From the NCBI GenBank assembly GCA_021798635.1, contig JAJZGH010000087.1:1-17611 (forward strand): DNA of 17,611 nucleotides, written 5' to 3'. The DNA comes from Planctomycetota bacterium. Lineage in GTDB: Bacteria; Planctomycetota; Phycisphaerae; WQYP01. The notes under the pieces are model-generated. The model was given only the letters and a program-made list of their open reading frames with translations. It searched no databases and was not told the origin of the DNA. The position numbers and the translations under genes are program-made. Below are positions 4,104-7,030 of the stretch, in pieces (the stretch's first letter is position 1; each line of letters opens with the position of its first letter).

Positions 4104-4985
4104 ATGTCCATTCGTTTGTTTACTGGCGTGATCGCTGCGGTCCTGCTGTTAATTATGGGTAGTGGAAATGCACCTGGCGCGAATGCCGCTAAAACCGTCA
4201 CGATTTACCCACTTGGAGATTCCATCACCTTCGGCTTTAGCCGCGCGACCAGAGACCACCGTATACCGGGGGGCTATCGGGCGGAGCTTTATACCCTTTT
4301 AACCCATGCTGGCTATAACGTGCATTTTGTCGGGTCCAGTACCCGCAACCCCACAATAAACCTGGTCCGGCATCACGCGACACAGCATGACGGCTGGCCC
4401 GGCTGGCGGATTGATCAGATTGCCTCCCATGTTAAACAGTGGCTGGCCCGCAGCGGCTACCGATTCAAAGGTCCCGCCTATCCCAACTTTATTCTGCTGC
4501 ATATCTCCACCAATGATATTATTCAGCATTTTGACCCGAAATATCCGGGTAAAAATGAGTCTGAATCGCAATTTATGCGCGATATGGAATCGCGCATGAC
4601 ACAGCTTGTTCAGGAACTTGTGACCTTGCGGCCCAAGGCTCATCTGCTGGTGGCGGAAGTTATTCCTCTGGGCGGCTGGTCGCCGAAAATCAAGTCCGCG
4701 CTTTGGAATAAGGACGTGCGCGAATTTAATGCGTTTGTGAAAACGCACCTGGTACCGGCATGTCAGGCTAAAGGGGAACGGGTAACCGCGGTGAATCAAT
4801 ATGCCAATTTTTCTACGCCGACGGGCAAGCCGATCTGGAAACATTTGCCGGACAAATGCCATCCGGATTCCTACGGCTACCGCCTGATGGGGCGCACCTG
4901 GTTTAAAGCCATCATGGCTATTTTGAAAAGGCCGACCGCGACGGAGGCGAATCACGTTATGAGAGTAAATCCTGTTCCGCGTTGA
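4104..4985 (+). CDS. Secreted SGNH/GDSL-family hydrolase
   Basis: An esterase or lipase-like hydrolase, 293 aa from this start. Residues 1-29 are a signal peptide ending near GANA, so the protein is exported. Block I is PLGDSITFGF with nucleophile Ser40. Block II Gly lies in GGYR (56-59). Block III is STND (Asn137) in place of the common GxND. Block V is DKCHPD with Asp250 and His253. The family acts on acyl or acetyl esters of lipids, carbohydrates or cell wall; the substrate here is unknown. Upstream in-frame starts exist at 4053 (ATGA overlap with the channel stop) and 4092. I prefer 4104 because it gives the cleanest signal peptide and avoids a T8 tract at 4082-4089. The 3' end overlaps the convergent trmB by 29 bp. 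Confidence 0.88.
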   Translation: MSIRLFTGVIAAVLLLIMGSGNAPGANAAKTVTIYPLGDSITFGFSRATRDHRIPGGYRAELYTLLTHAGYNVHFVGSSTRNPTINLVRHHATQHDGWPGWRIDQIASHVKQWLARSGYRFKGPAYPNFILLHISTNDIIQHFDPKYPGKNESESQFMRDMESRMTQLVQELVTLRPKAHLLVAEVIPLGGWSPKIKSALWNKDVREFNAFVKTHLVPACQAKGERVTAVNQYANFSTPTGKPIWKHLPDKCHPDSYGYRLMGRTWFKAIMAILKRPTATEANHVMRVNPVPR

Positions 4986-5691
4986 GCTCAACGCTGCCGC
5001 ATTGAGTTATTGGTTTTTTCAGGGCGATGCTGTTGAAGCTGCGGTTTTCCAGGATGTATTTTTTTTCAAAATTGGTACCCACCAGCAGGCCGTCGGCGGT
5101 GGGCAGCGGGGGCACAAAATCAATGATCTGCAAAGGCTTGAATTCGGAGCACACCGTGCGAATGTGTTCAAAATATTCGGCGTGATCGGTGACAATGCGC
5201 AAGATGCCGCCCGGCACCAGAACGCGCAAGGCCTGGTGCAGAAAGGGCGTTTGAATCAAGCGGCGTTTGTGGTGGCGCGCTTTGGGCCACGGATCGGGAA
5301 AATAGACATGCAGGGCATGCAGCGACTGATCGGGCACATGGGCACGTATCCACCAGTTGGCATCCGCGCGAACCATGCGGGCATTGGGAAGTTGATGCCG
5401 CCGGAGACGATCGGCGGCAAAATCACAATAAGCGCGAGCCCATTCAATACCGACAAAGTTATGCTTTGGGAATTCCGTTGCGGCGGCCAGCAGGAAGGTG
5501 CCTTTTCCCGAACCGATCTCCATCTGCACGGGATTATTATTAAGAAAAATGTCCCGCCAGGAAATCATGCCCGCATCATCGGGAACAAGAAGCAGGGCCG
5601 GTTCGGGAATTAAATTGGGCTTTAATGCCAAAGGAAAATCCTTGCCTCGGACAAGCTCGTGGGAAAAAACTCGGAATAACCCGGGCAGCAT
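4957..5691 (-). CDS. trmB: tRNA (guanine-N7-)-methyltransferase
   Basis: SAM-dependent enzyme that makes m7G46 in the variable loop of tRNA. It is 244 aa, close to the usual family length. EIGSGKG at 58-64 is the SAM-binding glycine loop, GIEWAR at 81-86 holds the acidic ribose-binding residue, and FPDPWPKARHHKRRL at 131-145 is the TrmB signature. TDHAEY at 168-173 and TNFEKKY at 206-212 are the conserved C-terminal blocks. The frame is open upstream to 5832, but that part runs through a structured RNA with a U tract, so I chose the ATG at 5691 even though its SD is weak. The upstream leader with a terminator-like end suggests control by attenuation (inference). The gene overlaps the hydrolase gene tail to tail. 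Confidence 0.92.
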   Translation of the reverse strand: MLPGLFRVFSHELVRGKDFPLALKPNLIPEPALLLVPDDAGMISWRDIFLNNNPVQMEIGSGKGTFLLAAATEFPKHNFVGIEWARAYCDFAADRLRRHQLPNARMVRADANWWIRAHVPDQSLHALHVYFPDPWPKARHHKRRLIQTPFLHQALRVLVPGGILRIVTDHAEYFEHIRTVCSEFKPLQIIDFVPPLPTADGLLVGTNFEKKYILENRSFNSIALKKPITQCGSVELNAEQDLLS

Positions 5692-5708
5692 TGGAAAACC
5701 GGCGCAAT

Positions 5709-5785
5709 AAAAAAGCCGCCACGGGCTGCCGAGTGGGGCGCGGCAGCTTTCGTGTGGGCAAAGTGGGAACCCACACGGTGGCGGC
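5709..5785 (-). ncRNA. Candidate three-way-junction RNA with terminator U tract
   Basis: Read on the minus strand, a closing stem P1 (8 bp, 5778-5785 with 5715-5722) encloses two hairpins. P2 has 8 bp (5770-5777 with 5751-5758) and P3 has 7 bp (5741-5747 with 5725-5731). All 23 pairs are Watson-Crick. P2 stacks directly on P1 with no linker; AAA joins P2 to P3 and CC joins P3 to P1. Six U residues (5709-5714) follow P1 at once, so the module doubles as an intrinsic terminator. Both loops carry a C-rich CCCACT sequence (loops of 11 and 9 nt). It ends about 18 nt before the trmB start. It may be a small RNA gene end, an attenuator or a riboswitch-like leader; I do not recognise a known class. 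Confidence 0.6.
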
Positions 5786-5804
5786 AGTTTCAAAATCTGC
5801 TGCG

Positions 5805-5925
5805 TCCGATGTTCGTTTCGCTCCTCCGCCAAACTGACGGAAAACCTTATAATAAAAAACTGGCTTAATTTTATAAACCAGTCACTTATTACTTCCGTCC
5901 GCCTGGAGGCACGAACGAACCCGGA
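5805..5925. repeat. Long imperfect hairpin (inverted repeat)
   Basis: Paired blocks, outer to inner: TCCG 5805-5808 with CGGA 5922-5925; GTTCG 5811-5815 with CGAAC 5916-5920; two TT/AA pairs and CG/CG; CCTCC 5823-5827 with GGAGG 5905-5909; GACGGAA 5836-5842 with TTCCGTC 5893-5899; TAATAA 5850-5855 with TTATTA 5886-5891; ACTGG 5859-5863 with CCAGT 5878-5882. The loop is 14 nt. That is about 36 pairs over 121 nt, interrupted by small bulges. It lies between the minus-strand promoter and the junction RNA, so it would be the 5' part of the same transcript. A MITE-like element is the alternative. Confidence 0.55.
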
Positions 5926-5996
5926 TTTTACGATCGAAGGTCAGCCGCCGAATCCCAAAAAAAGATCACAGGGCCATGTCCACAATCGACGTAGAC

Positions 5997-6024
5997 AGTA
6001 TAACCCCATGGATGGCAAAGTCAA
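5997..6024 (-). promoter_or_regulatory. Sigma70-like promoter for trmB leader RNA
   Basis: On the minus strand, TTGACT (6019-6024) is followed after 16 nt by TATACT (5997-6002). Both hexamers match the sigma70 consensus in five of six positions. Transcription would start near 5990 and run through the long hairpin and the junction RNA towards trmB. There is no minus-strand ORF before trmB, which supports a noncoding leader or separate small RNA. Confidence 0.6.
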
Positions 6025-6894: not shown

Positions 6895-7030
6895 CCGAAA
6901 TAACGCCAACTCCGCAGGAAATCGCGGCGTTTGGTCACGAGCCTGGGTGCTGTTATGGCACGCTCCACCACCGGCAAAGCCGGCGGCTATGTGAAGCTGT
7001 CCAGCACCCCCGTGTGAAGCGAAAATTGCC
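6895..7030. repeat. REP-like intergenic repeat, copy B
   Basis: Second copy of the element at 1610-1762, same orientation and 17 nt shorter by eye. The central hairpin (arms 6968-6975 and 6979-6986) has loop AAA where copy A has AGA. It lies between the convergent comB and SRPBCC genes. A further small hairpin CTTGG/CCAAG follows at about 7029-7043. The paired structure here may help end transcription from one or both sides, but no U tract follows the main hairpin. Confidence 0.6.

Follow-up and report, generated by a model that had tools for sequence, protein, structure and literature searches.

The window analysed here, a stretch of 17,611 nucleotides of Planctomycetota DNA, carries on its minus strand, ahead of the tRNA methyltransferase gene trmB, a compact and strongly paired sequence that raises the question of whether it is the end of a leader that controls this gene or an RNA in its own right. 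The initial annotation had left the choice between a new small RNA and an attenuator responding to a ligand or tRNA. We computed the structure of the element, its conservation, the compensatory changes in its stem P2, its U tract, a promoter-like site upstream, and its synteny with the exceptions to it. The element is almost certainly a conserved functional RNA element, probably represents a previously undescribed family of small structured RNAs that is order-specific as far as searched, and is best read, with some confidence, as primarily a small RNA that stands alone, with some transcription running on into trmB.

On the minus strand, nucleotides 5785-5715 are predicted to fold into a three-way junction with 8 pairs in P1, 8 in P2 and 7 in P3 (Table 1). 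The 23 consecutive Watson-Crick pairs that had been described are thus borne out, almost without unpaired bases at the junction (J1/2 of 0 nt, J2/3 of AAA, J3/1 of CC), and the minimum free energy of positions 5700-5800 is -50.1 kcal/mol compared to a mean of -29.6 kcal/mol for dinucleotide shuffles (z -6.4; 0 of 200 shuffles as good). Two further features had been pointed out from the sequence and are present as stated: both hairpin loops, UUCCCACUUUG and CGCCCCACU, display CCCACU, and six T (TTTTTT, 5714-5709) directly follow the closing stem P1. Both the U tract and the G-U pairs are consistent with the minus strand, to which we therefore assigned the element. Folding each of the 21 loci compared separately predicted the junction every time, and all of them carry at least five T starting no more than 2 nt from the stem, so that the eight pairs of P1 as a GC-rich helix and the U tract behind it form a predicted intrinsic terminator in 21/21 loci. 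A protein-coding reading was rejected because element lengths of 71, 72 or 73 nt would break any reading frame.

Table 1. Features of the locus on the minus strand of the window.
Feature	Positions	Strand	Remarks
Promoter-like site TTGACT-16-TATACT	5997..6024	-	10/12 match; -211 from element
Variable 5' part of predicted transcript	5786..5990	-	Stretch -82..-10: identity between genera 0.48, as shuffled
Three-way-junction RNA element	5715..5785	-	71 nt here, 71-73 nt elsewhere; z -6.4
P1, 5' strand GCCGCCAC	5778..5785	-	8/8 pairs invariant in 17 distinct rows
P2, 5' strand CGTGTGGG	5770..5777	-	2 double-changed pairs (9 cells)
Loop L2 TTCCCACTTTG	5759..5769	-	CCCACTT invariant in 18 aligned rows
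P2, 3' strand CCCACACG	5751..5758	-	Pairs with 5' strand of P2
P3, 5' strand GCTGCCG	5741..5747	-	No double change
Loop L3 CGCCCCACT	5732..5740	-	Whole loop invariant in 18 aligned rows
P3, 3' strand CGGCAGC	5725..5731	-	No double change
P1, 3' strand GTGGCGGC	5715..5722	-	8/8 pairs invariant, as for 5' strand
U tract (six T)	5709..5714	-	With P1, intrinsic-terminator-like end; at least five T in 21/21 loci
trmB (tRNA m7G methyltransferase)	4957..5631	-	PF02390, E 2.8e-40; TTG start probable at 5631, ATG at 5691 also possible

The comparison of these 21 loci from nine genera (the window and 20 fetched from other genomes) revealed an element identity between genera of 0.84-0.97 with a mean of 0.91 (184 pairs), while the stretch directly upstream from -82 to -10 is no more alike between genera (0.48; 169 pairs) than shuffled sequence (0.48). 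For one pair only, this can be set beside the RNA of the signal recognition particle (SRP), which is 90% identical between G001 and G014, with the element 87.5% identical between the window and G014. The TrmB proteins of other genera are 49-66% identical to that of the window. A single copy in 17/17 near-complete genomes with ca. 91% identity, as opposed to 49-66% for TrmB, points to a core role of the element.

To follow individual pairs, we used an alignment of 18 rows, i.e., the window and 17 genomes, leaving out the copies of G001, G005, G008 and G024 that are close to included rows. The predicted structure pairs in 98.2% of its cells, compared to 32-44% for versions slid along the alignment, a value reached by none of 500 shuffles. 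Compensatory changes occur in P2, where one pair appears as GC, AU or GU and another as UA, CG or UG, while neither P1 nor P3 has any double change and P1 is without a single pair swap in the 17 distinct rows. The nine double-changed cells give a covariation score that no shuffle (500) reached; the number of double-changed pairs (2) was reached by 118/500 shuffles and that of further pair types (8) by 296/500. Because P1 and the loops never vary and the pair counts are matched by shuffles, the covariation supports P2 and not the whole structure. Mismatches were found in four rows for P2 and in three rows for P3, and the latter three carry an extra G before P3 instead. In a tree of TrmB proteins, with a poorly resolved backbone and lineages read by eye, G014 is the sister of G016, and G015 falls with G018/G023 (93/91, below the tool's star). 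Judged by eye on this tree, the AU pair of P2 lies on two lineages and its CG pair on two, namely G014/G016 and four g4 genomes, so that the structure has been kept through compensatory changes by two P2 pairs, each on two lineages. The covariance search that the initial annotation had proposed has therefore returned both of the signs it had named, covarying stem changes (in P2) and conserved CCCAC loops.

The covariance model R1 built from the 18-row alignment, which scores the window at 107.6 bits (the window being one of the model's own sequences), found one copy each in 21 of the 28 genomes that make up the family of the window and, in the genome set used, its whole order. A copy is present in all 17 genomes with a completeness of at least 90% and no more than 5% contamination, and in 4 of the remaining 11. 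Among the seven genomes without one, five (G002, G004, G010, G026 and G028) are also without a detected trmB, the trmB search in G022 gave only a weak partial match, and in G017 trmB lies too close to the contig start to judge. With blastn, 21 of 101 relatives, the nearest of which is G001, matched the region, all of them members of one family. Outside the genus of the window, these matches comprise the element and at most ca. 10 nt of flank. Beyond the family, no match at E<=0.001 was found in a class sample of 397 genomes (369 outside the family) and no credible copy in a phylum sample of 392 genomes, in both cases with stricter Infernal filters at which weak matches are lost. Two weak matches at E<=0.1 in the phylum sample (26.0 and 25.8 bits; E of 0.006 and 0.012 per genome) are about what chance gives over 392 genomes. 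Scanning genome contigs for the DNA pattern of the element yielded 30 stretches, of which 20 are true copies (>100 bits), all from records titled as Planctomycetota or Phycisphaerales metagenome-assembled genomes (MAGs). The other ten, rejected at no more than 20.6 bits, were from Streptomyces (five), two contigs of one Eubacteriales MAG, Microthrixaceae, Buttiauxella and Bdellovibrionales, and two viral contigs were set aside. The plasmids and phages searched gave no match to the element. The regions upstream of trmB at 13 loci of other families, drawn from 92 other-family genomes with a match, reached at best 11.8 bits with the unfiltered model and contained nothing similar by eye. As far as searched, the element is thus specific to one order of Planctomycetota.

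Its position ahead of trmB was part of the original description and holds in 19 of the 21 genomes with a copy, where trmB is the next gene downstream. In the window, the start of trmB had been placed near 5700 and was moved to the probable TTG codon given in Table 1, as this is where the N-terminus shared by the other genera (mostly MALR.NL or MALK..L) lines up; on the other side of the element lies the divergent comB gene for 2-phosphosulpholactate phosphatase. Upstream neighbors vary between genera and can be on either strand. The start codon of trmB lies 17 nt past P1 in G018, 18 nt in G023 and 24 nt in G015, with a maximum of 142 nt in G011; at such short distances, trmB is probably transcribed through the element in the first three. 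The two exceptions are G014, in which an ORF of 456 aa sits between the element and trmB, and the draft MAG G012, in which trmB is on another contig than the element. The G012 copy has the top score of all (5.1e-25; 110 bits) with its U tract kept, and lies between a divergent ORF of 579 aa starting 430 nt upstream and a converging ORF of 534 aa that ends 329 nt past the element start. No recognizable same-strand gene follows it. The only same-strand ORFs nearby are one of 93 aa upstream and one of 85 aa that begins at +138 of the element start; neither has a homologue among the loci compared. Independence of the element from trmB rests mainly on this one genome.

Elsewhere in the window, two other kinds of repeats were seen. 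A 66-nt unit carrying CCACCACCGGCAAAGCCGGCGGC or a close variant of it occurs twice, at 1681-1746 and 6950-7015, with 77% identity between the copies, and looks like a dispersed palindromic repeat or a shared terminator-like hairpin. A 49-nt direct repeat (86%) at 160-208 and 1480-1528 ends in GCGCGCTTTGCGACAT and flanks an ORF (369-1187) with a product ending in a PEP-CTERM-like tail.

That the element has its own promoter had been proposed from the window, where a 10/12 site lies at 6024-5997. Such sites are near chance in the window alone (2 in 1.3 kb on both strands with 1.3 expected), but a like site recurs across genera: 18 of the 19 loci with 600 nt upstream have a sigma-70-like site of at least 10/12 located 97-349 nt upstream on the strand of the element, two more loci being cut by contig ends. 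The spacer is 16 nt in 17 of the 18 sites and 17 nt in G014, with AATAAT, and only G016 is without a promoter-like site within 600 nt upstream. Mononucleotide shuffles (200 each) reach such a site in 0.5-7.5% of cases per locus. Because loci within one genus are not independent, the count is also given by genus, as 8/9. G012 has an 11/12 site at -199. A perfect TATAAT ending 7 nt before P1 was seen only in this stand-alone copy (locus L078), and a -10 box directly before the element was discarded in favor of the upstream site. Transcription of the minus strand would thus start near 5990, and with a promoter-like site upstream the predicted transcript consists of a lineage-specific 5' part, the conserved junction and a U tract at the end. 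Folded as a whole, this transcript still contains the junction in 17 of 18 cases, with G009 as the exception.

The second large hairpin that the initial annotation had placed between promoter and junction is present in the fold of the 5' part as a long hairpin from ca. 5925 to 5805 with an inner T-rich stem-loop, but matches reaching this region are confined to the genus of the window, and one genome of that genus folds otherwise. The sequence of the hairpin region is alike in four of the five aligned loci of the genus and differs in G006, where mainly the last ca. 60 nt before the element are alike.

These data bear on the strongest rival to a stand-alone small RNA, which is that the junction serves as an aptamer for a metabolite, a tRNA or TrmB itself, fused to a terminator that controls trmB in cis, with the G012 copy as an orphan of a rearrangement. 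We consider this unlikely on balance, though still a serious contender. The persistence of trmB as the next gene in 19/21 genomes while the upstream genes change is what one would expect of it, the start codon shortly past P1 in three genomes looks cis-acting, and the two conserved loops on near-equal arms may recall aptamers with docked loops. A mutually exclusive antiterminator, however, was not found among the 18 loci searched, as the 5' part paired better than shuffles (p<=0.05) with the 5' strand of P1 in 0/18 and with its 3' strand in 1/18. A terminator stabilized by its ligand would need no antiterminator. The 5' part is also unconserved between genera, there is no Rfam match to the element, and an orphaned leader should decay, yet the G012 copy scores best. 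Pairing of the 5' part with loop L2 was seen at p<=0.05 in five of the 18 loci (L079, L084, L087, L088 and L089, from three genera) and with L3 in two, which is not consistent across genera. Of the two options that had been left open at the outset, the small RNA is thus favored, because the best-scoring copy, that of G012, has a promoter-like site and no recognizable same-strand gene downstream, while the attenuator is without direct support, with neither an antiterminator nor a T-box or riboswitch known to Rfam. It stays a rival because trmB follows the element so regularly and the case for independence comes from a single draft genome. For a stand-alone small RNA gene, the sequences offer a promoter-like site at 18/19 loci and one candidate stand-alone copy.

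The loops had been likened to those of small RNAs that target the G runs of Shine-Dalgarno sequences. Crude searches of 17 genomes, with the loop-complement pattern read backwards as control, gave such targeting no clear support: complements of L2 near ATG numbered 92 compared to 106 control matches, and those of L3 110 (including two that are the element's own antisense) compared to 84. In G016 alone, complements of L3 numbered 19 compared to 7 in the control. The 12-mer complement of L3, GAGTGGGGCGCG, occurs 18 times in the 17 genomes, 17 times inside the element and once outside, with 12 occurrences of its backward control; its scarcity outside the element may reflect chance or avoidance. 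Hfq was found in none of the 28 genomes of the order by a search that was positive in 5 of 14 control genomes, which sets the element apart from Hfq-dependent small RNAs.

The absence of a clear excess of targets would also suit an RNA that is bound by a protein or plays a structural role, as a ribonucleoprotein or a decoy, with loops and P1 frozen because a protein reads them. This explanation accounts best for the frozen P1, of which no pair is swapped in 17 distinct rows, and in the one pair compared the element is conserved almost as well as SRP RNA. Invariant loops would, however, be expected as well of small RNAs that base-pair with several targets. We regard the protein-binding or structural reading as improbable. 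An ordinary intrinsic terminator or dispersed palindromic repeat, which would account for a GC-rich stem followed by T, is very hard to reconcile with a single match per genome, 84-97% identity including the loops, and a place before trmB with changing upstream genes.

We return to the preferred reading of a small RNA with read-through into trmB, in which every step from the start of transcription to termination, read-through and the action of the loops is inferred. Transcription would begin at a promoter 97-349 nt ahead of the element (at -211 in the window). The 5' part of the transcript would be specific to the lineage and the conserved three-way junction would form its 3' domain, with P1 and the U tract terminating transcription. 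The released RNA, ca. 280 nt here and perhaps processed to a core of ca. 80 nt, may act in trans through UUCCCACUUUG and CGCCCCACU on G-rich RNA partners without Hfq, or these loops may bind a protein. In most genomes, some polymerases would pass into trmB, so that the RNA gene would also serve as the leader of trmB. More tentatively, and with doubts outweighing our confidence, we suggest that the element is an order-specific core RNA with a frozen P1 and paired CCCAC loops that are recognized either by a protein dedicated to them or by some abundant RNA, and that trmB is expressed by leakage. If this is true, the core RNA would be a lineage-specific ribonucleoprotein or a global regulator in bacteria that seemingly lack Hfq.

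Little seems to be known about small RNAs of Planctomycetota, with hardly any among the matches listed in the open-access literature, and a core role would fall to this one in organisms where Hfq was not found. The element therefore offers a test case both for small RNA action in this phylum and for how a small RNA gene and a housekeeping gene can share one transcript.

Rfam gave no match on the window at gathering score, and with the threshold relaxed to an E of 10 no match overlapped the element; in eight relative loci it found only a tRNA and nothing on the element. A T-box, riboswitch or other leader known to Rfam was dismissed on these grounds, as was the 6C small RNA (gathering score; E up to 10), and SRP RNA was ruled out by the presence of the SRP RNA of the genome elsewhere in 17/17 genomes. 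Among the matches listed in the open-access literature, including passages of PMC2864571, PMC5089854 and PMC10470900, no account of this RNA was found.

Three known systems nevertheless invite comparison. With riboswitch and T-box attenuators, the element shares a structured leader with a terminator near the start codon of an RNA-modification gene; unlike them, it has no Rfam match, no alternative pairing that we could find, and one copy without an evident gene to control. The loops of 6C and B11 of mycobacteria display a run of six C, whereas those of the element read CCCAC and CCCCAC, with each loop on its own arm of a closed three-way junction. What is common to them is the pair of C-rich loops, an analogy and not membership, and in Mycobacterium abscessus a reporter with a G tract in its 5' UTR is reported to escape B11 repression only when both C-rich loops are mutated (PMC10470900). 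Similar in arrangement is UpsM of Rhodobacter sphaeroides, which is described as a small RNA of 206 nt with four structured regions that is freed by an intrinsic terminator in the mraZ leader, is exclusive to one family, and is processed with a need for Hfq and RNase E, while mraZ relies on read-through from the UpsM promoter in about one of 100 events (PMC5089854). The element differs in being a three-way junction before trmB, in a lineage where no Hfq was found, and in having one genome with the RNA but without the adjoining gene. The likeness is one of arrangement only, by analogy and not by membership: here too, a probable small RNA and its predicted terminator lie in the leader of a housekeeping gene that is predicted to be fed by read-through.
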